64,000 bases of DNA, from NCBI RefSeq assembly GCF_016865485.1, contig NZ_AP024452.1:704501-768500 (forward strand), written 5' to 3'. Origin of the DNA: Luteitalea sp. TBR-22. Its GTDB lineage: Bacteria > Acidobacteriota > Vicinamibacteria > Vicinamibacterales > Vicinamibacteraceae. Position 1 is the stretch's first letter. Each line of letters begins with the position of its first letter. The translations under genes and the position numbers were made by a program. Positions 127-23,199 of the stretch are shown piece after piece. The notes below the pieces were generated by a model, which saw nothing but the letters and a program-made list of their open reading frames with translations, made no database searches and had not been told where the DNA came from.

Positions 127-129
127 GGC

Positions 130-210: not shown

Positions 211-220
211 CCAAGTCCGA

Positions 221-3200: not shown

Positions 3201-3772
3201 TCTACGAGGGCAAGCTCACCGAGCGGCCGGACCTGTCGCGCCAGCGCCTCGCGGGCGCCGCGCCCTTCGAGGGCGCCGGCCTGTGGTTCGTGCCTGTCGA
3301 GCACGCGGGCAACCACAATGCGTCGCTCGAGGAAGTCGAGATCGTCGCCGGCCTCGTGGCGCGCCTGCTGACGCCGCGTTCGCAGTGGGTCGACAAGCAT
3401 GGCGACGTCCACCGCCTGCGGTCGGCCGACCTGCGCGTCGTCTCGCCGTACAACGTGCAGGTGAGCCGCCTTGCCGAGCGCCTGGCCGACCTCGGTGTCC
3501 CCGTCGGAACCGTCGACAAGTTCCAGGGGCAGGAGGCGCCCGTCGTCATCTACTCGATGGCCACGTCGCGTCCCGAGGATGCGCCGCGCGGCATGGAGTT
3601 CCTCTACAGCCTGAACCGCCTGAACGTCGCCACCTCGCGTGCCCGGTGCGCCGCCATCATCGTCGCCTCGCCGGCGCTGTTCGAGCCGGAATGCCGAACG
3701 CCGCGACAGATGCAACTGGCGAACGCGCTGTGCAGGTTCAGGGAGCTGGCTGTTGGCCTGACGTCACTGTGA
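221..3772 (+). CDS. TM0106-family RecB-like nuclease fused to SF1 helicase
   Basis: The 1183-residue protein joins three parts. Residues about 10-245 form a RecB/Cas4-like nuclease: a conserved Asp in R-P-D-I-L and D132-T133-K134 fit the catalytic site, and four cysteines (C23, C230, C233, C239) match the one-plus-three pattern of an Fe-S cluster clamp. Residues about 355-525 form an RNase H-like exonuclease domain with D-L-E near 359-361 and a C-terminal D-D-C. Residues about 780-1170 form an SF1B helicase: Walker A G-P-P-G-S-G-K-T at 801-808, D-E-A-G-Q at 912-916, and late motifs V-D-K-F-Q-G-Q-E and N-V-A-T-S-R-A-R. This is the TM0106 architecture, predicted to act in DNA processing or defence; the exact substrate is unknown. 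ATG 221 follows the broken toxin by 10 bases. Confidence 0.85.
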   Translation: MHLKGTPPALVLSASDLSSFVGCRHRTALDLGVALGELAKPTVLSLHAQDLRDRGAEHERGYVASLEARGLRVVDLQNEGNRVGATVEALRQGVDVVVQGELLADGWFGRPDILRRVERPSDLGPWSYEVYDTKLARDTRGSTILQLTVYSELLGRVQGRMPTAFHVVTPDPDNGVHAFRVDDYSAYYRLAKHRLAQCLPDVASHGASSQPSPLHQSLADAHYPEPTDQCDYCRWADRCEARRRADDHLSYIAGASRVQRAELVARDVDTLAKAATMALPIAFRPTRGSKGTYVRLREQARVQLAQRETGRPVWELLDAPAPASEPAEPTRGSEHTPDALAQPRQGLERMPVPSPGDVFLDLEAARFAREGGREYLFGVWTRGSYRCWWATTDAEERAAFEAVVDLVMAAWEADPGVHVYHFGHYEASAFRRLAGRHATRADALDRLLRAGRFIDLHAVVRQSIRAGVESYSIKQLEQYYGYRREADLRGVARSLHLVELALESGGAEAITPGLRQAVETYNADDCRSTEALRDWLEGPVRAQALARGDVLTRPEPSDGAPNDDTRDVDAAVEALRARLLAGIDGDPSDPAHPRHTRWMLAYLIDWHRREQKAAWWDYFRVRELVGEAALEEPCVVSGLAHVRRLGSFISPKTGKPTSSVIEQYSYPPQDIEVSAGDTLTVLEGRTYGEVVEHDRIRRTIDLKVGKTAAELPRPDSLYATEIVRTDVLQAAVMRLAAEPDASTCGLELLYRREPRVRGAARASAPAAVQGPAALVRPGESAVDGAIRLVGQLDRSYLAIQGPPGSGKTYAGARMILALVKAGKRVGVTAGSHKVIVNLLEAVRKQAVEDGVHVTLGRKCKDDEAPGEGITGYGANGKAIEALQSGDIDVLGGTAWLWASNEATASVDVLFVDEAGQMSLANVLAVSQATDSLVLLGDPQQLEQPQKGSHPDGVDVSALQHVIGGAQTMPPERGIFLPETWRLAPPICRFTSEVFYEGKLTERPDLSRQRLAGAAPFEGAGLWFVPVEHAGNHNASLEEVEIVAGLVARLLTPRSQWVDKHGDVHRLRSADLRVVSPYNVQVSRLAERLADLGVPVGTVDKFQGQEAPVVIYSMATSRPEDAPRGMEFLYSLNRLNVATSRARCAAIIVASPALFEPECRTPRQMQLANALCRFRELAVGLTSL

Positions 3773-3774
3773 GG

Positions 3775-3795
3775 GGAGGGCACGACGCGCCCTCC
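3775..3795. terminator. Convergent hairpin between nuclease-helicase and protease genes
   Basis: GGAGGGC (3775-3781) and GCCCTCC (3789-3795) form a seven-pair GC stem around a 7-base loop, just after the TGA of the plus-strand gene and eight bases before the stop of the minus-strand protease. The location between converging genes fits a shared terminator, but no T tract follows on either strand, so Rho-independent function is uncertain. Confidence 0.4.
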
Positions 3796-3802
3796 ACTCG
3801 CG

Positions 3803-5227
3803 TCAGCGCGCTTCGGTCAGGTGAATCGAGGCGCCGATGCGACGGAAGGCCTCGTCGAGGGCGTCCGCATCGCGGTCGGGCGCGATGGTGAGGTAGTAGA
3901 ACAGCGTGCCGTCGGAGAGGAACGTGGTGAACACCGACACGCGTTCCTGCCCACCGAGTGGCGACGGGTTGACGAGCGGCGTGCTGATGGCCGTGCGATT
4001 GGAGAGTCGCACTACCCGTTGCGGGCCGGCCGCGCGCAGTTCCGGGTTCTGCCGGGCGACGGCGTTCAGCCACTCGTCGGTCGCCCGCTGCAGGTCGCGC
4101 GTCGTCGCGCGCGCGATGCCGAACTCCACGCCGTGGCTGAACACCGACTCGCCGCGCAGTTCGCCGTAGCCGTTCTCTGGCACCACCTTGACGCTGGTGC
4201 TCGAGGTCAGCACGGTCCAATTGGTCGGGACGTCCACCTCGAACACGCCACCGCCGGCGATGGTCCGGTACTGCGACGAGGGCGGCGGCACCGGCAGGCC
4301 GGGCGTGCCCACCGAGGTGCGCGTGCCCCGTCCCTCGGTGGAGCGGGCCTTCGCGGTTTCGGCCATGGACCGCGGCGCCGGCAGCGACGCGAATGCGGCC
4401 TTGGCGGTGGGGAAGCCGCGCTCGTCGGCCGGCGTGGCCACGGTCAGCAACTCCGCTTCGCGCGTGATGTACTGAGTGCGGTTGCCCGGGTCGGGATGGC
4501 TGCTCAGCCACTGTGGCCCGCCGCTGGCGCCCGCTTCCCTGGCGATCGTCTCGAACATGCGGGCCAGCGCCCGCGGGTCGTAGCCGGCGCGCGCCATGAT
4601 CTGCGCGCCGAGCAGGTCGGCCTGCTTCTCGAAATCGCGGCTGTACTTGAGCAGCAGCGTGCCGAGGCCGAACTGGCTGCTCGTGGCGATGGCCGAGCCC
4701 GCCGCGCCGCCGACCACCGCGCCGCCGATCGCCCCGGCCATCTGGCCCAGTTGCAGCCACGGGTTCTGCGCGCGCGTGGCGTTGGCCGTGCCGTGCCGCA
4801 GCAGCACGTGGGCCAGTTCGTGGGCCATCACGCCGGCGACCTCGCCCTCCGAGGCCGCGGCGTCGAACATGCCGCGATTGACGAACATCGGCCCGCCCGG
4901 CAGCGCGAAGGCGTTGATCTCCTTCAGGTTGACGGGCGTGAACGAGTACTCGTACACCGGGTCCTTCAGCGACGCGGGTGCCGCCTCCACCAGGCGATCG
5001 CCGATCGCCGTGAGGTAGCGTGTGATGCGCTCGTCGGTGATCACCGGGTACTGCTGGCGCGCCTCTGCGGCCGCCTCGCGTCCCAGCTCGACGTCCTGCT
5101 GGGGCGTGTACTTGTTCTTCGCGAGCTTGAAGGTGGTCTGGGCCGACAGGCCGGGCACCCACAGGGCCAGCACGAGTGCCAGCCCGGCCGTGCGGGTCGC
5201 GATCGTCGAGAAGGGCATCCCTGCCAT
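3803..5227 (-). CDS. M48-family secreted zinc metalloprotease
   Basis: The 474-residue product starts at the ATG at 5227 (an alternative ATG is at 5218), with GAGG seven bases upstream, and begins with a signal peptide ending near A-L-S-A-Q (about residue 29). The zinc site H-E-L-A-H at 136-140 and the third ligand in E-K-Q-A-D (about 200-204) identify a Peptidase_M48 domain. A glycine/alanine-rich hydrophobic stretch lies between them (about 162-182). The C-terminal ~200 residues look like a separate periplasmic domain. Members of this group (BepA/LoiP-like) degrade or fold envelope proteins outside the inner membrane. It is an ordinary chromosomal gene rather than a defence gene. An open frame continues upstream of 5227, but that extension lacks a signal peptide and runs through the divergent gene. 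Confidence 0.88.
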   Translation of the reverse strand: MAGMPFSTIATRTAGLALVLALWVPGLSAQTTFKLAKNKYTPQQDVELGREAAAEARQQYPVITDERITRYLTAIGDRLVEAAPASLKDPVYEYSFTPVNLKEINAFALPGGPMFVNRGMFDAAASEGEVAGVMAHELAHVLLRHGTANATRAQNPWLQLGQMAGAIGGAVVGGAAGSAIATSSQFGLGTLLLKYSRDFEKQADLLGAQIMARAGYDPRALARMFETIAREAGASGGPQWLSSHPDPGNRTQYITREAELLTVATPADERGFPTAKAAFASLPAPRSMAETAKARSTEGRGTRTSVGTPGLPVPPPSSQYRTIAGGGVFEVDVPTNWTVLTSSTSVKVVPENGYGELRGESVFSHGVEFGIARATTRDLQRATDEWLNAVARQNPELRAAGPQRVVRLSNRTAISTPLVNPSPLGGQERVSVFTTFLSDGTLFYYLTIAPDRDADALDEAFRRIGASIHLTEAR

Positions 5228-5320
5228 TTCAGCCTCAACACGCGTGCTCGCGCAACCCGAGAGGTGCGCCGTGCAGCAGTGCGCCCGTGGTGGACGCGGC
5301 TGTGGCACGCCAGGGCGGCC
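5228..5320. promoter_or_regulatory. Divergent intergenic region
   Basis: These 93 bases separate the start codons of the minus-strand M48 protease and the plus-strand hypothetical gene, so promoters for both should lie here. I see no convincing -35/-10 pair or operator. Confidence 0.3.
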
Positions 5321-5974
5321 ATGGTCTTGACCCGTGCCAAGCCGATGCGCGATGCTCCGCCCACCTTTCAGCGCATGGCCCTCACGCACCCGAGTCGCGG
5401 ACGAGAGCAGTCCGACGCCGTCCTGCAACTCGTCGGGTACTGGCACGCGGCGGAGGGAGACGGCCTGCCGCATCCGCAGCAACTCGTGCACCCGCGCTGG
5501 CAGTGGCGTCGTCGGCGGCGCATCCTCCGCTATCTGGGGAGTGGTGTCACGGCTCTGCAGTATCGCGGTTTCTCGTACTGTCGATTCGGTTGCGGAGGGC
5601 TCAAGGGCACGAGGGACTTCACCGATGGCACGTGGGTGTGGCCGGAGGGACTCTCGCATTACGTGCGCTGGCACGGCGTGAGCCTGCCCGAGGCGTTCGT
5701 CGCGCACATGGCGGCGCACGACTTCACCGTGCCCATCGACGATCTATCCAGGCATCACTCCATGCCGGTGTCCGACGACCTCTGGCGCGAGTGGGCGCAT
5801 CGTCAGGGCCCCTACCGCGCGATCGCGTGCTGCTATGCCTGCAGGGAGGAGCGCGGCGCGACCGACGTGACACTGCCGGTCTGCTGCCACGTTCCCTTCC
5901 GCTGGGCGTCCGGCTGGCTGTGGTACCACCTCGGCTTCCGGGGGTTCCGCGGAGATGATTCAGGCCCGTCGTGA
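5321..5974 (+). CDS. Conserved hypothetical protein
   Basis: The 217-residue frame starts at ATG 5321 with AGGG five bases upstream; in-frame ATGs at 5345 and 5375 are alternatives. It has no signal peptide and no obvious enzymatic motif. The sequence is rich in Trp, Tyr, His and Arg and contains F-T-D-G-T-x-V-W-P-E-G-L-x-H-Y-V near the middle, a pattern I associate with small uncharacterised proteins of soil bacteria. Several cysteines (C-R-F-G-C, C-C-Y-A-C) could bind metal. It is divergent from the protease and unrelated in codon style to the genes after 6.1 kb. No function can be assigned. Confidence 0.6.
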   Translation: MVLTRAKPMRDAPPTFQRMALTHPSRGREQSDAVLQLVGYWHAAEGDGLPHPQQLVHPRWQWRRRRRILRYLGSGVTALQYRGFSYCRFGCGGLKGTRDFTDGTWVWPEGLSHYVRWHGVSLPEAFVAHMAAHDFTVPIDDLSRHHSMPVSDDLWREWAHRQGPYRAIACCYACREERGATDVTLPVCCHVPFRWASGWLWYHLGFRGFRGDDSGPS

Positions 5975-6035
5975 CCCGGCGGGGACTCGGTAGCACTGCG
6001 AGCACTGCTGCCTCCGGGACGATGGCTGGTGAGTG

Positions 6036-6051
6036 AGTAGGTATGCCTACT
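6036..6051. promoter_or_regulatory. Palindrome AGTAGG-N4-CCTACT, putative operator (copy 1)
   Basis: AGTAGG (6036-6041) and CCTACT (6046-6051) are perfect inverted arms around TATG. The element lies about 130 bases upstream of the nuclease gene at 6184, in a 209-base non-coding gap (5975-6183) with nothing else recognisable. A second palindrome sharing GTAGG and TATGCCTAC occurs at 7628-7645 upstream of the next transcription unit. Confidence 0.4.
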
Positions 6052-6183
6052 AACCTTCCGCTTGAATAGCTGAGCAATAGGATGGTTGCCCGTAGCCAAC
6101 TGTCGTTCACGCGTCGTTTGCCGATGTACTTCCTGGCGGCAAGCCCGCCGGCGTTCTTGTTGGGACGCGGGAGACGCGGCTGA

Positions 6184-6918
6184 ATGAAAGTGACCTGGAG
6201 CATCCACACACGACTGCTTGACACGCACACCGACGTGGTCGGCGGTCTCGCGCCCGACTCCTTCGACAAGGTGACCCGCTCGACGATCCCGCTTCTCGAT
6301 TACTGGCGGGAACCGGCCGCACGGTTGGATTCCTTGACCGCGCAGCTCGGGTGGCCCCCGTTCAGCGAGGCGGAGCTGTCATTCGAGCGGCAAGTGCCCG
6401 TGGCGAACGGCAAGGGGAAGGCGTCGTTCACCGACTTGATGATCCTCGGTGACCAGGGGGCCATTGCGATCGAGGCCAAGTACACCGAGCCGCCGTACGA
6501 GACGGTTGCCGAGTGGCTCGCGCAGGGCAACCAGGCAAACCGCGCCCTCGTCCTGGATGGCTGGCTCGCCCGCATCGGCGAGGCAACGGGCACCGCGGTC
6601 GCCCGGCCCGGCGTCGCCGCGCTCCCGTATCAGCTGATTCACCGAGCGGCTTCCGCCTGCTCGGTGGCCTCGGCACGGCGTGCTGTCGTGTACCAGGTCT
6701 TCGACGACAAGCACTTGCAGCACTACCAGGAGAGTCTCCGCACCTTCGCCGGATGCCTGACGCCATCGTCGACGCTGTCGCTCGGTGTGCTGCTTGTGCC
6801 GGCGAGGCTCATGCCCGAGACTCCACGGTCCCTCAATGGCAACGCGCTGCGCGACGGGCTTCGAGGCATGCCGGTCTACGCGTTCGAAGAGGCATCGTGG
6901 TTCGCGACCACCTGCTGA
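6184..6918 (+). CDS. PD-(D/E)XK-fold nuclease-like protein
   Basis: The 244-residue protein has a restriction-endonuclease-like core: D84 in S-F-T-D-L-M-I-L, then the strand A-I-A-I-E-A-K with E97 and K99, and a conserved-looking E68 before them. This is the D-x(12)-E-x-K pattern of PD-(D/E)XK enzymes. I do not recognise the exact family. No helicase or methylase domain is attached. It is followed after 106 bases by an HNH protein, and both sit between the two related palindromes. A stand-alone nuclease of a restriction or abortive-infection unit is likely but unproven. A GGGAG lies about 10 bases before the ATG. Confidence 0.6.
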   Translation: MKVTWSIHTRLLDTHTDVVGGLAPDSFDKVTRSTIPLLDYWREPAARLDSLTAQLGWPPFSEAELSFERQVPVANGKGKASFTDLMILGDQGAIAIEAKYTEPPYETVAEWLAQGNQANRALVLDGWLARIGEATGTAVARPGVAALPYQLIHRAASACSVASARRAVVYQVFDDKHLQHYQESLRTFAGCLTPSSTLSLGVLLVPARLMPETPRSLNGNALRDGLRGMPVYAFEEASWFATTC

Positions 6919-7024
6919 CGCCCGACGCGCACCGCAGCTCGTTGCGGCGTGGGCCTGGCCGCGCCCGTCAGGCGCCTTGCCCGTGCTGGGGGGCGGGAAC
7001 CTCCAGGCGCACCACGGAGACGAC

Positions 7025-7582
7025 ATGAACGACAAACTGGCCTACAGGCAGCGCGCCCTTGCGCACTACAAGGACCACAGGTGTGCCTGGTGTGGGTTCG
7101 CAAGGAAGGAGGTGCTCGAAGTCGCGCACCTCGATTGCGACCACGAGAACTGCGGCACCGACAACCTGGTCGTGCTGTGCCCGACGTGCCATCGCATGCA
7201 CGACATCGACCTGCTGTCGACAGAGGAAGTTCGGGCTCGCAGGGAACGGTTGTCCTCTCCTGAATCTCCCGAGGCCGTTGAGGTGACGCCCTGCGGCTGG
7301 TGCGGCTTCGGAATCGAGCCGGGCATGGCGCTGTCCGGAGCTGCCAGTGAGGCGACTCCGACCATCATCCTGTGTCCCTCGTGCCGCGAGCGTGCTGCTC
7401 GAGGGTACATCTCCGAAGCCGAGCTCGCTGTTCGATTCGACAACCGGGATAGACCTGCGGACTGGAAGAAGCTGTCGAAGAAGGCTGCGGAGAAGGCTGG
7501 GCGGACACGCAGCAGGAAGTCGGCCGCTCGCAAGGCGGTTCGGACTCGGCTCGCGAACAAGGCGCGGGTGGCCGAGTCGTGA
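7025..7582 (+). CDS. HNH endonuclease-like zinc-finger protein
   Basis: The 185-residue frame starts at ATG 7025 after a GGAG ribosome site. Its N-terminal half carries an HNH/McrA-like zinc module: C20-x2-C23, the H-L-D-C-D-H segment (H35, H40), N47, then C52-x2-C55-H56 and H59. A second C-x2-C ... C-x2-C ribbon follows near residues 90-120, and the C-terminal 45 residues are a Lys/Arg-rich tail suited to nucleic-acid binding. The family cleaves or nicks DNA. Position directly after the PD-(D/E)XK gene suggests a two-gene unit. The 106-base gap between them shows no terminator. Confidence 0.65.
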   Translation: MNDKLAYRQRALAHYKDHRCAWCGFARKEVLEVAHLDCDHENCGTDNLVVLCPTCHRMHDIDLLSTEEVRARRERLSSPESPEAVEVTPCGWCGFGIEPGMALSGAASEATPTIILCPSCRERAARGYISEAELAVRFDNRDRPADWKKLSKKAAEKAGRTRSRKSAARKAVRTRLANKARVAES

Positions 7583-7627
7583 CGGCCTCTTGCCAAAGCA
7601 TTGCACTGGGTGGAGACCTGAGTCGCC

Positions 7628-7645
7628 TGTAGGAGTATGCCTACA
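7628..7645. promoter_or_regulatory. Palindrome TGTAGG-N6-CCTACA, putative operator (copy 2)
   Basis: TGTAGG (7628-7633) and CCTACA (7640-7645) flank AGTATG. The element shares GTAGG and TATGCCTAC with the palindrome at 6036-6051. It lies about 150 bases upstream of the DUF6361 gene in a 213-base non-coding gap (7583-7795), matching the placement of copy 1 relative to its gene. A common repressor site or a boundary repeat are both possible. Confidence 0.4.
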
Positions 7646-7795
7646 TGAAGCATCGCCAGCGTTCGGTTCTCCCCTCTGCATCGTTGTCTTACAACGACGG
7701 CTGTTGCCGGATTGGCTGTCAGACCAGCTCTGTTGAGCACGTTCTCCGCCGTGGAGTAGAAGAGAGCGGTCGCGCCCGGCGCGCCGCGAGACGCG

Positions 7796-9013
7796 ATGGC
7801 ATCGACATTCGGCTGGCTTGATGGCTCGGAGCAGCAGCGGCGGCAGATGAAGGACCTGCTGGCGCAGTTCAGGGAGCAGGACACGCGAGACGAACTGGGG
7901 CTGGCGACCATACGGGACGCCTTTGCCGACCTGTTCTTTCCCGGCACCGGCACGCTTCAGACGCGAGCCCGCTACTTCTTCTTCATCCCGTGGATGTACC
8001 GCGAACTGGCCGCCAAACGGGTGCCGGCGGCGTCCATCGCGACGCGCGTCAGGCGGTACGAACTCGACCTGATCACGCCCCTTCTGGAGACAGGCGAGAA
8101 CGGCGTCATCGGGAAGAACTCGCGCCGTAACCTCCAGCGAACCCCGAGCAATATCTACTGGAATGGTTTGAGGCGACTGGGCTTCTTTCGCCTTCCGCTC
8201 TCGCAGGACCAGTACCACCGGCGCTTCGACGCGGTGCACGGTGCAGCCAGCCGCGTGCGTTCCGACGACGGGGAGCCCGTATCGACCGACGTCGCTGCCT
8301 GGCATCCACAGATGCCGACAGCTCCCGCAACGTTCCCCGGGGATGCGGACCTCGAGCTCACCGCCGATGAAGCGGACTTCCTCTACGCACGAGTGGTGGA
8401 ATCGGCGCCAGAGTCCCTCTTTGCATGGTGGCTGGTGCACCAGTGCCCTGGTAGGGACGAGCCCTTCGCCTGGAGCGCCATGTCATCCATCGAACTCCCG
8501 GACAAGCTTCGCCGTCAGGTCGAGCACGCACGCCGCTTCTCCCTCGTGGTCCATGGCGCCACGATCCTGTACACCTTCCTCCTGACCAAGCTACGGCACC
8601 AGCAGGCCGGGGGCGCGAAGGACGCGGAGAAGTTGCCGGCGCATGAAACACGCATGGCAGAGTGGCACGTCAGCGTGACGAGAGAACTCGAGGACCTCCG
8701 GGCGTGGAGCTTCAGCGACTTCTGGTCCTGTCTTGCTGATCAGCATGCGGTGATCGGTCGCCAGACCAGGGACTTCGTCGAGGCATGGACACGACTGGTA
8801 CTGTCCTCTCCGCGCCCCGAGACCTTGCTGGCCTCGCGCGAGGCACGCAGCCTTATCGAGTCCAGGGAACAGGCGCTCAAGAAGAAGCTCTCCCGGTTTC
8901 AGAACACGCGCGCACTCGAAGTCTGGGGTGGCTCGACTGGACTCCGTGCCATGGACTTCCGCTGGAGCTCCGCGGTCGTGATTGGCCAGGACATTCAGGC
9001 CGCCCTCAGCTGA
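7796..9013 (+). CDS. DUF6361-family protein
   Basis: The 405-residue soluble protein begins M-A-S-T-F-G-W-L-D, then an R/E-rich helix and a D-x-L-F-P-G-T-G-T-L-Q-T-R-A-R-Y-F-F-F-I-P-W segment typical of DUF6361. The rest is mostly helical, with no catalytic motif I can point to. DUF6361 members are known to me only as neighbours of phospholipase-D-fold proteins and helicases in defence islands, and that is exactly the arrangement here: the next gene starts two bases after this stop. It is the first gene of a four-gene unit and probably has a structural or recognition role. Function is inferred from context only. Confidence 0.72.
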   Translation: MASTFGWLDGSEQQRRQMKDLLAQFREQDTRDELGLATIRDAFADLFFPGTGTLQTRARYFFFIPWMYRELAAKRVPAASIATRVRRYELDLITPLLETGENGVIGKNSRRNLQRTPSNIYWNGLRRLGFFRLPLSQDQYHRRFDAVHGAASRVRSDDGEPVSTDVAAWHPQMPTAPATFPGDADLELTADEADFLYARVVESAPESLFAWWLVHQCPGRDEPFAWSAMSSIELPDKLRRQVEHARRFSLVVHGATILYTFLLTKLRHQQAGGAKDAEKLPAHETRMAEWHVSVTRELEDLRAWSFSDFWSCLADQHAVIGRQTRDFVEAWTRLVLSSPRPETLLASREARSLIESREQALKKKLSRFQNTRALEVWGGSTGLRAMDFRWSSAVVIGQDIQAALS

Positions 9014-9015
9014 CC

Positions 9016-10836
9016 ATGCTGACCGATCCCTACAACCGCTCGAAGCTGTTCGACGTTCTCAGACCTCCCCACGGCATGGAGCTTCAGATGGGGGTGGGTA
9101 CCACCTACTCGCTCGATCTCCTCGCCTTGCTGCTGGCGCCAGTGGCCTTCAGCGCACTGGAACTGGAGAACCTGAAGAGTGTGTCGGCAGTCAGTTCACT
9201 GGAGGTCCTCCAGTCACTGCGGCGCTATGCGGGCCGGCTCACGGTCTTCTGCCAGTCGGGGCAGTTGATTCCGCCGAGGAAGGAATTCGCGCAGTTCGTC
9301 CACCTGGAGAGGGTGGTGGCAGAGTGCCGCGCGAACGAAGGCAGCTTTCACCCCAAGGTGTGGGTGCTGCGATTTGCGCAGGGCGACGACGTGATCTACC
9401 GATTCGCGTGCCTCACGCGCAACATGACCTTCGATCACAGCTGGGACACGGTGCTGACGCTCGAGGGATCGTTGATGAACCGGGTGAACGGCATCGGTCG
9501 CAATCGCCCCATTGGTGATTTCGTCGCAGCTCTTCCTGGTCTCTGTGTGGAGTCGCTCGATGAGGCCGCACGAGCACGCGTTGCGCAGATTGCCGACGAG
9601 GTGCGACGTGTCGAGTTCGAGTGTCCCCCGGGAGTCGACGACCTGCATTTCTGGCCGATGGGCATCGAGAGGGCGAGGAAGTGGCCGTTCCCGCCCCGTC
9701 CTCGCCGCGCGGCGGTGATCTCTCCATTCCTCACCCGGTCCGCCCTGGACAAGGTGTTCGACGGTTGCTCCCGCTCGGTGCTGGTGAGTACGGTGTCGGC
9801 CCTTGCCGAATGTGCCGAGGTGCCTGAGGGAGTCGAGCAGCTGTATACGCTCCGTGAAGGCGTCATCCCCGAGCCAGAAGAGCCAGGCGACGTCGCGCCC
9901 GAGTATGACGATCCGGCAGGACTTCACGCCAAGTGCTTCGTCTTCGAGGACTCCGACGGGGCGCATGTCTTCACGGGGTCAGCCAACGCGACGCACAGCG
10001 GGCTCCACAGGAACGTGGAGTTCCTCGTCCAGCTGAGTGGAACGAAGTCGCGCCTCGGCATCGATGCCCTCTTGGCACCAGAGCAGGGCGCCACTCGGCT
10101 CATCGACATCCTGCAGCCCTTCCACATGAAGCCAGGGCCGGCTGACCCTCACGACAAGGACCGTCGAGAGGCCGAGGAATGCGTGGACAAGGCACAGCGG
10201 GTGATCGCTGCCACCGAGCTCTGTCTGGCCTGCGCCCCGAGCCAGGACCATCCCGGCACCTTCGACCTGCGCGTGGCCTGCGGCGGCGAGCTCCGACTGC
10301 AGGAGGTAAGCGCGTGCTGCTGGCCGGTCACATTGCCTCCGGAGCGAGCATTGGCTGTGGGCGCCGGCACCCTGCCCACGTTCACGGGTGTGACCGTCCT
10401 TGGCGTCTCGCGCTTTCTGGCGTTCGAGGTCTCGGCGACCGTCGGCACCGAGACCTGCACCCGCAGGTTCGCACGGAAAGTCACGCTCGAGGGCGCACCG
10501 GAGGACCGCGAGCAACTCGCGCTACAGGCCGCATTGGGCGACATGGGGCAGTTCCTCCGATACCTGCACCTGCTCCTGACGCTCGGTCCGTCGGGTACGG
10601 GAATCGAGCCCGGCGACCAATCCTGGGGCCTTGGTGTCGGCGCCGCAACTGTCGCGCTACCGCCCCTCCTCGAGCAACTGCTCAAGGCCCTCGCTCGCGA
10701 TCCGGCGAGGCTCGATGAGGTCGAGCGCACGGTGCGCGACCTTCGCAAGGCACCGGCCGCTTCCTCGGTCATTCCCCCGCATTTCGATCTCGTGTGGGAA
10801 CCGGTGCGTGAAGCGCGTGAGGCACTGCGGTCATGA
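9016..10836 (+). CDS. Phospholipase D-fold (HKD) putative nuclease
   Basis: ATG 9016 lies two bases after the DUF6361 stop and gives 606 residues. Two HKD-type half sites are visible: F-H112-P-K114-V-W, degenerate, and L-H304-A-K306-C-F-V-F followed by T-G-S-A-N-A-T-H-S-G-L, a good match to the H-x-K-x(4)-(D) ... G-S-x-N motif. PLD-fold proteins in defence islands usually cut nucleic acid rather than lipid. No signal peptide is present, so it acts in the cytoplasm. Its stop overlaps the helicase start by four bases (ATGA), implying translational coupling and likely a nuclease-helicase complex. Confidence 0.8.
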   Translation: MLTDPYNRSKLFDVLRPPHGMELQMGVGTTYSLDLLALLLAPVAFSALELENLKSVSAVSSLEVLQSLRRYAGRLTVFCQSGQLIPPRKEFAQFVHLERVVAECRANEGSFHPKVWVLRFAQGDDVIYRFACLTRNMTFDHSWDTVLTLEGSLMNRVNGIGRNRPIGDFVAALPGLCVESLDEAARARVAQIADEVRRVEFECPPGVDDLHFWPMGIERARKWPFPPRPRRAAVISPFLTRSALDKVFDGCSRSVLVSTVSALAECAEVPEGVEQLYTLREGVIPEPEEPGDVAPEYDDPAGLHAKCFVFEDSDGAHVFTGSANATHSGLHRNVEFLVQLSGTKSRLGIDALLAPEQGATRLIDILQPFHMKPGPADPHDKDRREAEECVDKAQRVIAATELCLACAPSQDHPGTFDLRVACGGELRLQEVSACCWPVTLPPERALAVGAGTLPTFTGVTVLGVSRFLAFEVSATVGTETCTRRFARKVTLEGAPEDREQLALQAALGDMGQFLRYLHLLLTLGPSGTGIEPGDQSWGLGVGAATVALPPLLEQLLKALARDPARLDEVERTVRDLRKAPAASSVIPPHFDLVWEPVREAREALRS

Positions 10837-13800
10837 CGTCTGTCCTCGCCCCTCCCTACGGACCGAAAGTACTGCGCTCCCTGCGCGACTTCCAGCGGAA
10901 CACGGTCGAGTACGTGTTCTCGCGGTTGTACCTGGAGTCGCCTGGCGCGAAGCGCTTTCTGGTGGCCGACGAGGTCGGCCTCGGCAAGACCATGGTCGCC
11001 AAGGGCGTCGTCGCCAGGGCCATCGATCACCTGTGGAAGCGGGAAGACCGCATTGATGTCGTGTACATCTGCTCGAACGCGAGCATCGCGCGGCAGAACG
11101 TCAGCAGGCTCAACGTCACGGGCACCGATGACGCCGTCCTGCCGACTCGTGTCACGTTGCTGCCCGCGAGGATCAAGAGCCTGCAGCGGCAGCGCCTCAA
11201 CTTCGTCTCCTTCACACCGGGCACCTCATTCAGCCCCGCGTCGTCGCTCGGGACCGCCGAGGAGCGCGCCCTTCTGTACTGGTTGCTGCCGCCCGAGTGG
11301 CGCCGCGAGGACCGTGCTGCGGTGACCCTGCTCGCGGGAAACGCCGGACGCGACCGGTTCGCTGAACGAGTAAAGGGGTTCGATCAGTCAACGATCGATG
11401 ACACGCTGCGCATCGCTTTCCAGAAGAAGCTTGAAGGGGGCGCGGCCGATCCTCAGGCGCTTCTGCCGAGATTCCAGAGGCTGTGCGAGGAAATCGGTCG
11501 CGCGACGAACCTTTCGGATGACCAGCGGTCGGCCCGCAGCGAGCTGGTCGGTGAGTTCAGGGCGTCGCTGGCATCCACGTGCATCACCGCACTCGAGCCC
11601 GACCTCGTCATCCTCGACGAGTTCCAGCGATTCAAGGATCTGCTTGACGGGCAGGACGAAGCGAGCCGGCTTGCTCGCCACCTGTTCGACTACGAAAAGG
11701 CCCGGGTTCTCTTGCTGTCGGCCACGCCGTACAAGATGTACACGCTGCAGGACGACGGCTCCGGCGACGACCACTTCGCGGACTTCCTGAAGACCGTCGA
11801 GTTCCTGCAGGGCGCCGACAGTTCGACCGGCACCTTCAAGGAGCAACTGGCCGACTATCGTCGTGCGCTCCTTCAGCACGCAGGCGGCGACCTTTCGGAG
11901 CTGACCAGACGCAGCGAGGCCATCCAGCAGCAACTCCGCGCGGTGATGGTGCGAACGGAGCGGCTTGCCGTCACGCCATTGCGCGACGGCATGCTTCGGG
12001 AGGTACCGCCGCTGGCGATGCACTTGAAGGCAGCGGATGTGAAGGAGTACGTGGCAATCGACCGCGTGTCGCAGGCGCTCGACGCTGGCGATGCGTTGCA
12101 CTACTGGAGCGCTGCGCCTTACCTCCTCAACTTCATGGAGTCGTACGTCCTGAAGAAGAGACTGGCCGAACGCATCGACGCAGCCGATGAGCGCCTCGTG
12201 TCGGCAGTGTCGGAGGCGCGCTCCACCCTGCTCTCCAGGGAGGACATCGAGCGATACGCTGAGCTCGACCCGGCCAACGCACGTGTGCGGAACCTCTTCG
12301 AGGATCTCGACGCGGCGGGTGCGTTCGAGGTGCCCTGGGTGCCTCCATCGATGGGCTACTACGCCCTCGAAGGTCCATTCGACGCAGTGAAGTCCGGCTT
12401 CACGAAGCGGCTCGTGTTCTCGGCCTGGCACGTCGTCCCGAAGGTCGTCGCGTGCCTCGCCAGTTACGAGGCTGAGCGTCGTCTCGTGCGGCCCGCCGCG
12501 GGTGGCGAGGTGACGTACAGGAGTGCGCGCGACAAGCATCGCGGGCGTCTCCGGTTCACGGTGCGGGACGACGGCGCGTCAGGAGCGTCGCGCTTCGCTG
12601 GCATGTCCGTGCTCGGCCTGATGTATCCGTCGCCCACCTTGGCCATCGAGTGCGACCCGCTACAGGCTGCCCGGGACAGCCGTCAGGGAGGGCCTGAGCT
12701 CCCCGTGCTGTCAGATGTTCTGGGACAGGTTCGCAGTGTGCTCGAGCCCCGGCTGGCGGCCTTGGCGCGGCCAGACAGCGGCGGTGCCGAAGACGAGCGG
12801 TGGTACTGGGCTGCGCCTATGCTGCTTGACCTGATCCAGCATTCCGAAACCACGCAGGCCTGGTTCGGGCAGCGTGACCTTCACGGCGAGTGGCGCGAGC
12901 CTACGCGGGCGGCAGCCAGCAGCAACGAGGCCGATAGCGAGGCCCAGGAGGGCTGGCGTCGGCACGTGGACCACGCGCGACAGTTGCTCCAGTCGCAGGA
13001 TCTCGGTCGCCAGCCTGCTGATCTCCCAGATGTCGTGGCACGGCTGGCCATCGCCGGCCCAGGCACGATGGCGCTTCGGAGCCTTGCGAGGGTGACCGGG
13101 CAGTTGTCGCGAGCCGATTCTGTCGCGCTGAGGAACGCTGCAGGACGCATCGCCGATGCCATTGTCGGCCTGTTCAATCTTCCGGACGTCGAGGCCTTCG
13201 TCGACCGGGCGAGCGAGGCGCACCGGGTACGTACCGGTCAGGAACCTGGCCCTTACTGGCGTGAGGTGCTGGGCTTCTGCGCGGCGGGCGGGTTGCAGGC
13301 CGTTCTCGACGAGTACGCCCACATCCTCGTCGATGCACTCGGGCAGCAGGGCCACTCCATGGAGTCGGCCGCCCACGCGATCGCTGACGAAATGGGAAAG
13401 GCCCTCCGAGTGCGGACGGCTACTCTCAGCGCGGATGCCTTGTGGGTCGCCGATGATGGTCGTCCAGTGCTCGAGAGGGGTGCGCTCGCGTTCAGGTCGC
13501 GGTTTGCCGTGCGTTTTGGCGCCGGCCCCGCCGAGGGCACCGACGAGGGTACAGACAGGGACGACGCGGTAAGGCGCGCCTTCAACTCGCCGTTCTGGCC
13601 GTTCGTGCTTTGCTCGACGTCCGTGGGTCAGGAAGGGCTGGATTTCCACCAGTACTGCCACGCCGTCGTGCACTGGAACCTGCCTTCGAACCCGGTCGAC
13701 CTCGAGCAGCGCGAGGGCCGTGTCCACCGCTACAAGAACCACGCAGTGCGCAGGAACCTCGCGAAGCAGCACGGTCACGCGCTGACTGCCGACGGGCATC

Positions 13801-14360
13801 CTGATCCCTGGCGACAGGCGTTCAAGGCAGCGGAGTCCGAGCGCGAGGAAAGCAAACCCGATCTGGTGCCGTACTGGGTGTACGCGCCACCGGGCGGCGT
13901 GGCCATCGAACGGCACGTACCAGTGCTGCCGCTGAGTGGGGATGCGGAGCGGCGCACGCGCCTGCAGAAGTCGCTGGCGCTCTACCGTCTCGCATTCGGG
14001 CAGAGCCGGCAGGAGGATCTTGTTCAGTACCTTGCGCAGCGCCTCGATGAACAAGCCATCGCTGACGTGACATCGCGACTGCGGCTCGACCTCGCGCCTC
14101 CCATCGCGGCGATGGCCGAGCCGCTGCCCGTCGATGACGGCGTGCTCGTGTCAACAGGCGTGGTACCTCGTGCCGGGCAGGCACTCAAGGCCCTCGGCGA
14201 TGATGTCGACCGCTTGTCTGGGCTTCTCGATGCGTTCGCAATCGTCAGGGAAGCGGCCAGGCTTCGCGACAGTGTCGAGACGTTCCGTGAGCTTCTCGAC
14301 AGGTTCCAGGCGGTGCGAGCCGGCACCGCGGCCAACACACAGGGAGTGGTTCAGGCATGA
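10833..14360 (+). CDS. SNF2-like DEAD/DEAH superfamily 2 helicase
   Basis: The 1175-residue protein opens with F-Q-R-N-T-V-E-Y-V-F and a Walker A D46-E-V-G-L-G-K-T53. The Walker B is D262-E-F-Q, and S-A-T-P-Y-K follows. After a long insert of about 550 residues the C-terminal helicase lobe carries S-V-G-Q-E-G-L-D-F-H and Q-R-E-G-R-V-H-R (near residue 959). The lobe-to-lobe insert is far longer than in a minimal helicase and likely binds partners. The start overlaps the PLD gene (ATGA) and its own stop overlaps the next gene the same way. Role: ATP-driven translocation on DNA for the PLD/DUF6361 unit. The architecture does not match DrmA or the BREX helicase. Confidence 0.82.
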   Translation: MTSVLAPPYGPKVLRSLRDFQRNTVEYVFSRLYLESPGAKRFLVADEVGLGKTMVAKGVVARAIDHLWKREDRIDVVYICSNASIARQNVSRLNVTGTDDAVLPTRVTLLPARIKSLQRQRLNFVSFTPGTSFSPASSLGTAEERALLYWLLPPEWRREDRAAVTLLAGNAGRDRFAERVKGFDQSTIDDTLRIAFQKKLEGGAADPQALLPRFQRLCEEIGRATNLSDDQRSARSELVGEFRASLASTCITALEPDLVILDEFQRFKDLLDGQDEASRLARHLFDYEKARVLLLSATPYKMYTLQDDGSGDDHFADFLKTVEFLQGADSSTGTFKEQLADYRRALLQHAGGDLSELTRRSEAIQQQLRAVMVRTERLAVTPLRDGMLREVPPLAMHLKAADVKEYVAIDRVSQALDAGDALHYWSAAPYLLNFMESYVLKKRLAERIDAADERLVSAVSEARSTLLSREDIERYAELDPANARVRNLFEDLDAAGAFEVPWVPPSMGYYALEGPFDAVKSGFTKRLVFSAWHVVPKVVACLASYEAERRLVRPAAGGEVTYRSARDKHRGRLRFTVRDDGASGASRFAGMSVLGLMYPSPTLAIECDPLQAARDSRQGGPELPVLSDVLGQVRSVLEPRLAALARPDSGGAEDERWYWAAPMLLDLIQHSETTQAWFGQRDLHGEWREPTRAAASSNEADSEAQEGWRRHVDHARQLLQSQDLGRQPADLPDVVARLAIAGPGTMALRSLARVTGQLSRADSVALRNAAGRIADAIVGLFNLPDVEAFVDRASEAHRVRTGQEPGPYWREVLGFCAAGGLQAVLDEYAHILVDALGQQGHSMESAAHAIADEMGKALRVRTATLSADALWVADDGRPVLERGALAFRSRFAVRFGAGPAEGTDEGTDRDDAVRRAFNSPFWPFVLCSTSVGQEGLDFHQYCHAVVHWNLPSNPVDLEQREGRVHRYKNHAVRRNLAKQHGHALTADGHPDPWRQAFKAAESEREESKPDLVPYWVYAPPGGVAIERHVPVLPLSGDAERRTRLQKSLALYRLAFGQSRQEDLVQYLAQRLDEQAIADVTSRLRLDLAPPIAAMAEPLPVDDGVLVSTGVVPRAGQALKALGDDVDRLSGLLDAFAIVREAARLRDSVETFRELLDRFQAVRAGTAANTQGVVQA

Positions 14361-14959
14361 CGACGTACTACACGGACACCGACAAGCTCCTCCTCGAGCG
14401 CTGGCAGGAGGTCAATGAGCTCATCGAAGCACGCGAGGAGCTGATCGATCGAATTGATGACGTCGTCGAGGTCGCTGGTCAATTGTTGGCGCGCTCCCTC
14501 GAGCCTCGCGGCTATGCCGTGGAGGCGAGCCCGAAGGACGTAGCCATCTATCTGCACCGATCCGCTTGGGCGGACCGCAAGAAGGGGACGCCAGTCTATT
14601 TCACGCTAGGTGGCTTTGCGCCTCTTGGCTACAGGAAGCACAGTGAAGCACACCCGTATCTGTGGTTGACCACCAGTGACCTTGAGGCGTTTCGACAGAA
14701 GGTGGACCAACGGATCGAGTTCAGCCGTTCCCTGCGCAAGGCCCTCGGAGCTGATGTCGCTAGGACATGGGAGCACCACCACTGCAATGACGCAGATGAG
14801 CCCCTCGGCCGCGTCTTGACCGACTACGACGATCGCGCGCGATGCGAACTGGTGTCGAGTCCGGAGAAGCTGCATGACTTCGCCATGAAGGAGTTCGATC
14901 ACGCTTTCCAGATCGCCGATGTCGTGGAGCGTCAGTTGTTTGTACTTCTAGGCCGCTAG
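14357..14959 (+). CDS. Small partner protein of the DUF6361-PLD-helicase unit
   Basis: The 200-residue acidic protein is coupled to the helicase by an ATGA overlap. The N-terminal 45 residues form a Glu-rich helix (L-L-L-E-R-W-Q-E-V-N-E-L-I-E), followed by a compact mixed domain with several Trp/Tyr residues and a charged C-terminal helix. I recognise no family, no catalytic motif and no membrane segment. The tight coupling implies stoichiometric production with the helicase, for instance as a subunit, inhibitor or specificity factor. It ends the unit; 49 bases later the RmuC gene begins. Confidence 0.65.
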   Translation: MTTYYTDTDKLLLERWQEVNELIEAREELIDRIDDVVEVAGQLLARSLEPRGYAVEASPKDVAIYLHRSAWADRKKGTPVYFTLGGFAPLGYRKHSEAHPYLWLTTSDLEAFRQKVDQRIEFSRSLRKALGADVARTWEHHHCNDADEPLGRVLTDYDDRARCELVSSPEKLHDFAMKEFDHAFQIADVVERQLFVLLGR

Positions 14960-15008
14960 AGAATCGACCGCCCTTCCATACTCGACTCCGCACGCGAAGT
15001 TCCAGACC

Positions 15009-16766
15009 ATGTCCTCGACTGCTCTCTTGTGGGTGCTCTTGCTCGTCAGCGCACTCTCGCTCGTTCTCTCGCTCGTTCATCTCCTGCGAGTCGGCCGCAC
15101 ATCACCGGGGGCATCTGCCGATGTGCGGGAGGAGTTCCGCATCTCTCGGGACGAGGCACGTGCCGCCGGTAGGGAGTTGCGTGAGGAGGTCAACGAAGCG
15201 ATCCGAGGAGGCACGGAGCAGCTGGCTACCAGTGTCGACAGGCTGGGCGCCGGACAGAAGGCCCAGCTCGAAACCATGGCTACACAGGCCAGGGAGCTGA
15301 CGCAAGCGACCCAAGTGGCCCTGGACCGAGTAGCCAGCATATTCGATGGTCGGCTGCGCGAGCTTCGGGATGGGAACGACCAGAAGATTCTGGAGATGCG
15401 CAAGGAGATCGGCCAGGCGCTGAACGTCAACGCGGAGGCGCTCACAACGACCGTGGACCGACTTCGCGCCGCGCAGCGGGAGCAGCTCGAACTGGTGGCC
15501 GCGCGCGTCAAGGAGCTGACCGAAGCCAGCCAGGGGGCGCTCCACGGCATCCGGGGCACGCTGGACGAGCGGGTTGGCAAGGTGCAGGAGTCGACCGAAC
15601 GATCTCTTGCGGCGAGCCGCAGCGAGATCGCAGACGGACTCGCCAAGTCCGGAGCCGCCCTCATCGAGGCGATGAAGGCCGTGGGGTTGCAGCAGCAGCA
15701 ACAGCTCGAGGCCATGACGACGCAGGTGCGCGCGCTGTCGGAGTCCAGCCAGCAGGCTCTGGATCGGTTGCACGCACGCCTCGACGCACGCGTGCAGGCG
15801 CTGCAAGAGTCAAACGACCGCAAGCTGGAGGAGATGCGCAACACCGTCGACGGCAAGTTGCAGGAGACGCTGGAGCGTCGGCTTGGAGAGTCCTTCAAGA
15901 TCGTCAGTGAGCGCCTCGAGGCCGTGCACAAGGGCCTTGGCGAGATGCAGACCTTGGCGTCCGGCGTGGGAGACCTGAAGCGCGTACTCACGAATGTCAA
16001 GGCTCGCGGCACGTGGGCCGAGGTGCAGCTTGGTGGGCTGCTAGAGCAGGTGCTCTCGCCCGAACAGTTCTCACGCAATGTTGTGGTGGTCCCGGGACGC
16101 ACTGAGCACGTCGAGTTTGCGATCCGGTTACCTGGGCGCGAGGAGAACGGTGGGAGCCCGGTATGGCTGCCAATCGACTCGAAGTTCCCGCAGGAGGACT
16201 ACCTGCGTCTGCAGGATGCCGCCGATCGGGCTGATGCCGCGGCGACGCAAGCCGCCCTGGAGGCCCTTGGACGTGGCGTCAAGGTGGCGGCGCGTGAGAT
16301 CGGGACGAAGTATGTGTCGCCGCCGCACACGACCGATTTCGCCATCATGTTTCTCGCCACGGAGGGTCTCTACGCAGAGGTGATCCGACAACCCGCACTC
16401 GTGGATGAGCTGATGCGCGAGTACCGCATCGTGGTTGCTGGACCCACGACTCTGACCGCGCTCCTCAATAGTCTTCGGATGGGGTTCCGCACGCTTGCCG
16501 TGCAGCGCAGGGCGTCGGAGGTCTGGAGTGTGCTCGGCGCCGTCAAGACGGAGTTCGGGAAGTTCGGTAGCGTCTTGTCCAAGGTCAAGCGGCAGCTGGA
16601 GACCGCGAGCCGGACGCTCGAGAAGACGGGAACCCGCACCCGCGCGTTGACCAACAAGCTGGAAGCGCTGGAGGCCTTACCGGAGCACGAAGCCGAAGCT
16701 CTGCTGAATCTCCCATCCGACATCGACGCAGGTGAAGCAGCCGAGGAGGACCTGACGCCCGTGTGA
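15009..16766 (+). CDS. rmuC: RmuC-family DNA recombination protein with expanded coiled coil
   Basis: The 585-residue protein has an N-terminal membrane helix (residues about 6-26), a long coiled coil (about 40-310) and an RmuC domain (about 320-530). The RmuC domain is recognised by G-T-W-A-E-V-Q-L-G-G-L-L-E, then P-I-D-S-K-F-P and A-I-M-F-L-A-T-E-G-L-Y-A-E. RmuC proteins are membrane-anchored nuclease-like proteins (PD-(D/E)XK-type fold) linked to limiting DNA inversions and to defence against foreign DNA. The coiled coil contains three 73-residue repeats. It is separated from the following vWA gene by about 280 bases, so it is a neighbour rather than a proven member of that operon. Confidence 0.85.
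   Translation: MSSTALLWVLLLVSALSLVLSLVHLLRVGRTSPGASADVREEFRISRDEARAAGRELREEVNEAIRGGTEQLATSVDRLGAGQKAQLETMATQARELTQATQVALDRVASIFDGRLRELRDGNDQKILEMRKEIGQALNVNAEALTTTVDRLRAAQREQLELVAARVKELTEASQGALHGIRGTLDERVGKVQESTERSLAASRSEIADGLAKSGAALIEAMKAVGLQQQQQLEAMTTQVRALSESSQQALDRLHARLDARVQALQESNDRKLEEMRNTVDGKLQETLERRLGESFKIVSERLEAVHKGLGEMQTLASGVGDLKRVLTNVKARGTWAEVQLGGLLEQVLSPEQFSRNVVVVPGRTEHVEFAIRLPGREENGGSPVWLPIDSKFPQEDYLRLQDAADRADAAATQAALEALGRGVKVAAREIGTKYVSPPHTTDFAIMFLATEGLYAEVIRQPALVDELMREYRIVVAGPTTLTALLNSLRMGFRTLAVQRRASEVWSVLGAVKTEFGKFGSVLSKVKRQLETASRTLEKTGTRTRALTNKLEALEALPEHEAEALLNLPSDIDAGEAAEEDLTPV
15177..15833 (+). repeat. Three 73-residue tandem repeats in the RmuC coiled coil
   Basis: Residues 57-129, 130-202 and 203-275 align without gaps. 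The blocks A-Q-L-E-T-M (85), E-Q-L-E-L-V (158) and Q-Q-L-E-A-M (231) are spaced exactly 73 apart, as are R-E-E-V, R-K-E-I, R-S-E-I and a fourth start M-R-N-T-V (276-280). This shows internal duplication of a coiled-coil unit, lengthening the arm between the membrane anchor and the catalytic domain. Confidence 0.75.
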
Positions 16767-17046
16767 CCCCGGACATACTTCTCCCATGCGGAGCCTTAGG
16801 TCCTGGCTCATCAATGGAGTCTTCGTCGCTGTCGATGGAAGATCGAAGGTGCGGCCGCGTACTCCTGTCTTGCTCGCTGACGAGTTTGGCGCCACAATGC
16901 CTCCCCCCGGGATGAGCTGAGTCCATGCGACAGCGTAACGGAGGCTCACAGGGCCGACACCTCCGGCCGGGCGAGGGCGTGTTGCCTGTCGGGTCTTTCT
17001 GACCATGAACCACGTGACTACTGGCGACAGGAAAAGTGGTACTGCC
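16767..17046 (+). other. Intergenic region before the vWA-tubulin operon
   Basis: About 280 non-coding bases should contain the operon promoter. I see a weak CTCC-CATGC-GGAG hairpin near 16786 but no convincing -35/-10 pair. In-frame ATG 17005 would extend the next gene by 14 residues and spoil its signal peptide. Confidence 0.3.
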
Positions 17047-18933
17047 ATGAAGGGAAGGCGGCTGACCGTCCAGCTCTGTGCTCTCTCCCTGAGCCTCGTC
17101 GCCATGTCGATGCAGGCCGAGGCCGCGTCCCCGAGACACTCGAGCCTTGTCGTACTGCTCGATCGCTCCGGAAGCATGCGCCAGGCCGACGGCGCTTGCG
17201 TCCGTGCTGATGCAGGCCAGCTGCTACTGGAGCAGGCGGTAGATGGAGACCGGCTGTCCGTTGCCGCCTTCGGCGACGCGATCCAGCCGCTCACGCCAGG
17301 TTTCGTCACAGTCGACCCATCGACTCGGCGCTCTCTGCTATCGGCCTTTCGGACCTGCGCTGCCACGGATGCGCGAACCGACATAGCGGCTGCGCTGGAG
17401 TACGCGCTCGAGACCGCGCAGCAGGTGCCTCAAGAGCAGCGGCGTACTTTTCCCGTCCACGTGCTCCTGCTCACGGACGGACGGCATGACCCTCCAGCGC
17501 CACGAGCCCAGCGTAGCGTCGACGATGTAGTCGGGCAGCTGCAGCGGGAGTCCGTTCAGGTGCACGTCCTGGCGCTTGGCAACGGCGTGGATCGTGCACT
17601 GCTGACACGAATTGCACGCGCGACCGGTGGCCAGATCGCCTATGCCCGTGAAGCGCGCGACCTGGTGGTGGGCTTCCTGAGCGTGGCGAGGCTGTTGGGG
17701 CGGCAGTGGCTGCTCTTCGACCGGCTGGTGTCGCCTGGCCGCGTCTCGGTACCCCTTCCAGCGTGGGCGACCGAGTATCAGGCCGTCTTCATTCCCCAAT
17801 CGGGAGAGGCCACGCTGTCAGCCCCAGGGGCCGAGGCAGCGCGCCGGGCCGCCAACTATGCGTATCTAATCGGACCTGGCCATGCCGGCCCCGTGGAGAT
17901 GCAGGTCGGGGGGGCAGGGCGTCTACTGGTCCAGGCGCCTGGTGACCTGGTGCTGAACGCCAGGATGCCTGCCGTCGCGCCGCGGGACGTGTTCTTCCCA
18001 TGCGCGGTCCGCCTTGAGCCGACACGAGCCGGTGGACTTGGGACCCCTGCCTTTCTCGGGGGAGCCACCGTGTCGCTCCGGCTGGGCGCCGATACGTTCG
18101 CCCTGTACGACGATGGCAAACATGATGATGGCGGCGTGAGTGATGGCGCCTTTGGCGGACGGTGCAGATCTGCGGGGACCGGAGCGCTGTTCTGGTCCGC
18201 TACCCTGGCCGCCCCTGTGCTCGACCCACCATCCGCCTCCGGAAGCATCGAGGTGCTGGCGTCGCCCCTCAACGTCCGCGACCCCGGAATCTTCTCGGGA
18301 TGGCTCGACGCCTCGCTTCATCGGACTCCGCGGGTGTGGTTTGACAACCCCACCGACGTGCAGGTCGACGGCCGGCTAGAAGCCGGTACCTGGCATCTGG
18401 ATGTAGCCATGGCGCCGCGGTCCTCGCTGGAAGCGCGCTTGCCCTTCACTGGGGCGGCGTTCGCGACGCGGCGGGAGCCTGTCGTTCTCGTGCAGGAGGG
18501 GCGTACCGTACCGCTTGGCGGTGTGCGGGTGCGTCCGTCGTGGTTGGTACCGGCCGTGCTTGCGCTGGTCGGCGCCATGGTGGGCGTGCTCCTCCGTTGG
18601 CCGCAGAGCATTGCGGGAAGCACGTTGCTCGTTACCGGGACGCATCGCGATGGACCTGAACGTTCCTTCAGCGCGGTGGCTACCATCGACGAAGGAGGCG
18701 TACCGAGGTTCTCGGCCCAGGCACCACCTCCACCCTTCGACACTCCTGGCACCTTCCGAGCCGTGCCAGGCGCAAGGCAGCAGAAGACCGACTTCGTGCC
18801 CAGAGCCGGACAGGTGCCGATGTTTACGGCGTCCATCCGCGGGAGGGCTGGCATGTTCCGTCTCGGACGAAATGCCTCCTGGCGTATCAGCGCGGACGGC
18901 TTCTCGGTCACTTACACCTTCAACCGGAAATAG
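17047..18933 (+). CDS. Membrane-anchored von Willebrand factor A protein
   Basis: From ATG 17047 the protein has 628 residues. A signal peptide (M-K-G-R-R ... A-E-A-A, about 1-27) leads into a vWA domain whose MIDAS metal site is intact: D-R-S-G-S-M, then D-A-R-T-D and L-L-T-D-G-R. Several beta-rich domains follow, then a membrane helix W-L-V-P-A-V-L-A-L-V-G-A-M-V-G-V-L-L (about 499-517) and a cytoplasmic tail of about 110 residues. The predicted topology is therefore metal-dependent ligand binding outside the membrane and a short signalling tail inside. The tubulin-like gene follows five bases later. ATG 17005 is an alternative start but lacks a better ribosome site. It is probably the sensor or anchor of the operon. 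Confidence 0.82.
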   Translation: MKGRRLTVQLCALSLSLVAMSMQAEAASPRHSSLVVLLDRSGSMRQADGACVRADAGQLLLEQAVDGDRLSVAAFGDAIQPLTPGFVTVDPSTRRSLLSAFRTCAATDARTDIAAALEYALETAQQVPQEQRRTFPVHVLLLTDGRHDPPAPRAQRSVDDVVGQLQRESVQVHVLALGNGVDRALLTRIARATGGQIAYAREARDLVVGFLSVARLLGRQWLLFDRLVSPGRVSVPLPAWATEYQAVFIPQSGEATLSAPGAEAARRAANYAYLIGPGHAGPVEMQVGGAGRLLVQAPGDLVLNARMPAVAPRDVFFPCAVRLEPTRAGGLGTPAFLGGATVSLRLGADTFALYDDGKHDDGGVSDGAFGGRCRSAGTGALFWSATLAAPVLDPPSASGSIEVLASPLNVRDPGIFSGWLDASLHRTPRVWFDNPTDVQVDGRLEAGTWHLDVAMAPRSSLEARLPFTGAAFATRREPVVLVQEGRTVPLGGVRVRPSWLVPAVLALVGAMVGVLLRWPQSIAGSTLLVTGTHRDGPERSFSAVATIDEGGVPRFSAQAPPPPFDTPGTFRAVPGARQQKTDFVPRAGQVPMFTASIRGRAGMFRLGRNASWRISADGFSVTYTFNRK

Positions 18934-18938
18934 ATACG

Positions 18939-21680: not shown

Positions 21681-21681
21681 C

Positions 21682-23190: not shown

Positions 23191-23199
23191 GTCTTCGCA

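Follow-up and report, generated by a model that had tools for sequence, protein, structure and literature searches.

An Azaca phage-defence locus with an additional gene and a motif-bearing helicase tail

Judged by their profile matches, the first three genes of a four-gene locus in Luteitalea sp. TBR-22 are Azaca (ZacA-ZacB-ZacC), a named three-gene phage-defence system. This core is already known; what is new is the fourth gene, D, together with a motif-bearing C-terminal tail of the helicase ZacC, and it is the co-occurrence of the two that supports this. We hold it to be probable that such loci form an Azaca subclade with a fourth subunit, D, which would serve as a tail-binding chaperone or adaptor of the helicase-nuclease complex, both the binding and the function being what we infer. 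A subclade in which ZacC has a partner of its own and several copies of a docking tag could help to explain the assembly or activation of this helicase-nuclease. Should the tag also act on the GmrSD restriction enzymes, a single regulatory add-on would serve defence enzymes that are not related to each other, and tail sequences could be used to predict further clients.

The four-gene locus and its Azaca core

The window, by which we mean the whole stretch of 64,000 nucleotides that was analysed (G000:C1:704501-768500), belongs to a genome of 6.47 Mb on a single contig. The original prediction had described four co-oriented genes with gaps of 2, -4 and -4 bases, namely a DUF6361 protein, a PLD-fold protein, a helicase and a small protein, and this description holds: the four ORFs are present, and DUF6361, PLD-like and DEAD plus Helicase_C domains were found in genes 1-3. 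The features are as follows.

7796..9013, plus strand: zacA, 405 aa, DUF6361, predicted all-helical (Pfam PF19888, E 1.4e-54; PADLOC ZacA, E 7.5e-121, profile positions 1-394 of 396; model pLDDT 91.0)
9016..10836, plus strand: zacB, 606 aa, PLD-type putative nuclease with conserved HxK motifs (PADLOC ZacB, E 8e-157, profile positions 2-583 of 586)
9349..9357, plus strand: first HxK motif of ZacB, H112-P-K114; H112, K114 and N136 invariant in 70 ZacBs
9925..9933, plus strand: second HxK motif of ZacB, H304-A-K306, followed by S322 and N324; each in at least 90% of 70 ZacBs
10833..14360, plus strand: zacC, 1175 aa, SF2-type helicase by its motif positions (PADLOC ZacC, E 0 over residues 12-1089, profile positions 8-1016 of 1019)
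14100..14357, plus strand: C-terminal tail of ZacC, residues 1090-1175 (86 aa), beyond the reach of the ZacC family profile
14223..14246, plus strand: ZacC tail motif 1, LLDAFAIV
14292..14315, plus strand: ZacC tail motif 2, LLDRFQAV
14357..14959, plus strand: gene D, 200 aa, undescribed accessory protein; no family above cut-off, recurs behind ZacC, pLDDT 92.7

Gene 2 lies in a frame whose longest ORF begins at 8785, but the ZacB profile aligns from the start at 9016. A scan of positions 7500-15300 found nothing promoter-like and a single terminator-like site, on the opposite strand, a count below that obtained with shuffled sequence.

The unit had been put forward as possibly new, an idea that falls with the near-complete profile matches of genes 1-3 to the already named Azaca; a new, unnamed system is thereby ruled out. 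The three genes are contiguous on one strand (gaps of 2 and -4 bases), and related loci keep the same order. The gene names ZacA and ZacB are ones that we take to belong to Azaca, a system reportedly discovered by Millman et al. in 2022. The likeness extends to all three genes, their order and their families, including the PLD-like domain that the accessible part of one paper ascribes to Azaca (PMC10952713) and the helicase that another, in the part available, names ZacC (PMC12278908). Its mechanism is called unknown in the passages available from two further papers (PMC12926258, PMC10482375). No fourth Azaca gene appears in the titles or abstract openings of the full-text matches for Azaca with defense or phage; as literature names, ZacA, ZacB and ZacC gave solely unrelated uses among the matches listed, and Zac is absent from the main text of two PADLOC papers. 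The difference between this locus and Azaca as named is thus gene D and the 86-aa motif-bearing tail of ZacC.

ZacA is predicted to be helical in a confident model built from 67 sequences, for which structure look-ups and a profile search of solved structures gave no useful match. The PLD-like domain of ZacB has a Pfam E-value of 2.7e-5, under Pfam's own cut-off, and the search of solved structures with its profile returned one short match, to the putative helicase chain 7clg (1.3e-5). In the alignment of 70 ZacBs, the residues conserved in and around both HxK motifs form the pattern expected of a two-motif PLD active site, which favours the original view of this protein as the likely nuclease. 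The helicase motifs of ZacC begin at residues 46 (DEVGLGKT), 262 (DEFQRF), 296 (SATPY), 529 (FSAW), 933 (QEGLDFH) and 958 (EQREGR). There is indeed extra sequence here, as had been proposed, but it is not one block of about 550 aa between the lobes: on our reading of the motif positions, about 230 aa separate motif III from a motif-IV-like strand, and a further 400 aa or so lie inside the second lobe.

Azaca is broadly distributed. A contig scan with a nine-sequence ZacC alignment was used to collect relatives, and the best 80 of 562 confirmed ones, which come from many bacterial phyla and from archaea, were taken further. The 91 locus records examined comprise these best 80 of 562 and 11 others; L034 repeats L042 (G424:C29) and L018 apparently repeats L056. 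All three genes are found in 79 records, B and C in 6, C in 5, and A and B in 1, with 11 of the 12 incomplete records, judged by coordinates, running into a contig end (the exception is L075). In one record, L060, the best ZacA match is on the opposite strand and apart from B and C. ZacC matches were also obtained in 37 plasmid records and one phage record; one plasmid record is annotated as DUF6361, phospholipase D and DEAD helicase, in the Azaca order. ZacB was not found in viral contigs.

Gene D follows one clade of ZacC

The fourth protein had been called unknown, and to the libraries searched it is: none of the models in Pfam, PADLOC and NCBIfam matches D above cut-off, and its best E-value against PHROGs is 0.055. 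To follow its distribution, each contig was counted once, giving 89 Azaca loci (the best 80 of 562 plus those of the window, G017, G487, G259, G308, G502, G512, G513 and G515). D lies directly behind ZacC in five of them (the window, G017, G424, G487 and L083) and is missing from 84, of which 76 extend for at least 1 kb beyond ZacC. The expectation that the four families recur as a unit therefore fares unevenly, as D is not conserved across Azaca but occupies the same place in one ZacC clade. That clade holds the D-bearing ZacCs with a support of 1.0 in a tree of 90 sequences, so within Azaca we are dealing with one event kept by descent and not with four. The D proteins of these five loci are 31-43% identical to that of the window.

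A similar picture emerges from whole genomes. Among 162 genomes of the window's order, 8 match the D profile, 8 match ZacB and 4 match both, an overlap with a hypergeometric value of 1.6e-4 when relatedness is ignored; the four are the window's own genome, G017, G424 and G487, in each of which D is directly behind ZacC. The 3 D matches in 396 genomes drawn from the phylum and the 8 in 193 genomes of the class all fall in the window's order. No D was found in viral contigs or plasmids. The G017 locus (L013, 3117-6726) is a decaying copy of Azaca with D in which ZacC is truncated, and in its D a short stretch close to the start is duplicated, with a change of frame.

The tail of ZacC and its repeated motif

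In most cases ZacC stops close to the position that corresponds to residue 1090 of the window's protein, with a median tail of 4.5 aa in loci that lack D. The four intact ZacCs that are followed by D have instead a C-terminal tail of 80-140 aa with two to four LLDxF-type motifs each: LLDAFAIV and LLDRFQAV in the window (tail of 86 aa), LLDDLNAL, LLDEFARI, LLDAFVAC and LLEQFVRM in G424, LLDDFARV and LLQAFSAV in G487, and LLDHYLSL, LLDLFIAT and LLGEFVAK in L083. In G017, LLDRFVVLR can be read just before D, outside the open frame of the truncated ZacC.

Tail motifs are thus present in 4/4 intact D-bearing ZacCs compared with one loose match among the 76 that lack D and have at least 1 kb downstream (Fisher, about 3e-6, a value that is not a true probability since the D-bearing loci form one clade). 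The five tails that accompany D, four of ZacC and one of a GmrSD-type protein described below, hold 12 motif occurrences, where 20,000 shuffles gave 0.2 on average and 3 at most; the motif had been defined on the same tails in which it was later tested. The loose match is a single one in the 192-aa tail of L053; this ZacC (937-4767), from an Armatimonadetes bin, has a differing C-terminal extension that resembles an added folded domain. Other long tails in D-less loci, those of L071, L096 and L104 (37, 37 and 122 aa), are free of the motif.

At the scale of whole genomes the motif is not enriched in the eight that carry D, with 35 matches against 37 for a reversed control. One match in the window's genome, at G000:1295170, was considered as a second client of D and dropped, as it lies outside the suggestive helicase ORF and any ORF chosen there.

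D beside other genes

The remaining D genes have other neighbours. In G007, where neither ZacB nor ZacC has a match, D shares a single base with the end of a gene for a GmrSD-type protein (type IV restriction, DUF262/DUF1524; Pfam 1.6e-30 and 5e-24). Beyond its best PADLOC match this protein continues for another 61 residues, and the extension holds LLDEFARVR. By comparison, none of 11 GmrSD relatives without D (10 of 25 listed among 66 plasmid records, plus G495) has the motif in the corresponding tail or a D match in the stretch fetched, and five of them have other tails of more than 100 aa. The likeness to our locus lies in this pairing of a D homologue with a tail motif; the enzyme family is unrelated to Azaca, and a single such pairing was seen. 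What the comparison establishes is that D and the motif co-occur, as far as sequence goes, both in ZacC and in a single GmrSD protein unrelated to it, and the best reading of this is that D was exchanged between the two systems.

In G483, D comes after a gene for an HmaA-like helicase and a short SoFic-like ORF, which may be a truncated gene; neither of these neighbouring proteins has a tail motif. A fragment of D lies in G036 between an SbcC-like gene (identified by eye) and a Schlafen-type gene, and in G030 D sits at a contig start.

A predicted fold with a weak leaning towards chaperones

The model of D, built from six sequences, has a pLDDT of 92.7 and a pTM of 0.85, and is predicted to consist of a long N-terminal helix, four strands, helices, another strand and a long C-terminal helix. 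Foldseek gave nothing convincing (best E 0.67 in PDB and 0.042 among viral models), nor did a profile search of solved structures give anything firm. In VIA-align, CapZ ranks first (Z 6.4), and type III secretion chaperones fill eight of the ten best rows (Z 5.1-5.9, with two entries each for Spa15 and CesT), all below the trust level of Z 8, under which a score may merely reflect a common arrangement. As a lead from the predicted model, then, the weak fold likeness leans towards type III secretion chaperones of class I. Such chaperones bind extended segments of their partners, which would suit a protein that is paired with tails.

What D may do

On the reading that we favour, D as a fourth subunit of an Azaca subclade, ZacC would translocate on DNA or survey it, ZacB with its predicted two-HxK PLD fold would cut it, and ZacA may provide a helical scaffold. 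D would bind the LLDxFxx[VIL] segments that recur in the ZacC tail and, as a dedicated chaperone or adaptor, could control the folding, assembly or activation of the helicase-nuclease.

A bolder proposal, which we find rather unlikely, is that D is a chaperone-like protein acting as a portable licensing subunit of bacterial immunity: it would read a short tag, LLDxFxxV, which has been attached, often in several copies, to the C-termini of DNA-destroying enzymes from unrelated families, and would keep the Azaca helicase or GmrSD folded or silent until infection draws D away. Such an arrangement would be analogous to that of TAC chaperones, with another fold and with nuclease systems as clients. 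In TAC, according to the part of the paper available, the client carries a C-terminal extension by which a SecB-like chaperone recognises it (PMC5105189); in CmdTAC the chaperone is diverted by capsid protein that has just been synthesised (PMC11618068, likewise in part). The resemblance is that of a small protein encoded with a partner bearing a special C-terminal extension; it differs in that the partner of D is a helicase and not an antitoxin, and that binding of D to the tail is presumed. The locus has no toxin or antitoxin genes, the partners of D being DUF6361, PLD and helicase proteins, and D has no SecB match in Pfam at E-values up to 1, which makes TAC an analogy and not a matter of membership.

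It is also unlikely, in our judgement, that the locus is plain Azaca, with three working genes and D a passenger on a shared transcript that plays no role in defence. The absence of D from 84 of the 89 loci is what one would expect of a passenger, as is the fact that PADLOC files Azaca under three models; set against this, D has kept its place behind ZacC in five loci despite the low identity to the window's D, and it goes with tail motifs in two unrelated proteins.

An inhibitory role appears more doubtful still, with D as an immunity protein that silences ZacC (or GmrSD) through its tail and so keeps the nuclease from harming its host. In line with this role, the gene for D comes immediately after that of its likely partner and the unit has no methylase to mark self DNA, but most of the Azaca loci examined have neither D nor the tail, and the core thus seems to manage without a silencer. 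The missing methylase is by itself no anomaly, because the three Zac models include none. Outside the unit, the window does contain a BREX methylase, PglX (37764-41492), which belongs to another system.

Lastly, that the unit is a variant of DISARM is hardly credible: it shares a PLD protein and a helicase with DISARM, its profiles overlap weakly with DrmC, DrmD and DrmA, and DISARM genes (DrmD, DrmMI) adjoin Azaca and D in G424 and G487, but the Zac profiles leave every Drm profile far behind (E 0 for ZacC as opposed to 2.3e-14 for DrmD and 4.2e-11 for DrmA; 8e-157 for ZacB as opposed to 1.4e-5 for DrmC), and DrmD exists as a gene of its own next to ZacC in G424 and G487. DISARM is defined by DrmB plus a methylase in the unit, and genes 1-4 match neither, so that the loose resemblance and the missing components noted in the original prediction were well judged.

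Neighbouring genes

The gene after D in the window encodes RmuC (15009-16766), which we rejected as a part of the unit as related loci annotated with RmuC as a query contained no match to it. It opens a plus-strand series (15009-27423) of RmuC, VWA, Tubulin_2, an unnamed ORF of 522 aa, a coiled-coil protein, an OmpA/MotB-type protein with weak ZorB likeness, another unnamed ORF and DUF429, in which the combination of VWA, tubulin and MotB-like genes could be a conflict system of its own. Positions 32880-57409 hold a BREX-type set with PglW, PglX (DUF7008), BrxC/PglY, BrxD and BrxHI, and an extra helicase-like protein of 1711 aa (41504-46639; PDC-S37 and MkoC matches) lies between PglX and BrxC. 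In L034 (G424, 16-6935) and L035 (G487, 1-5917), Azaca and D are followed by the DISARM genes DrmD and DrmMI. Upstream of the locus, the window encodes a protein with RNase_H_2 and SF1 helicase domains and MkoA-like matches (221-3772), and a small protein with a weak likeness to HNH or homing endonucleases (6785-7582).
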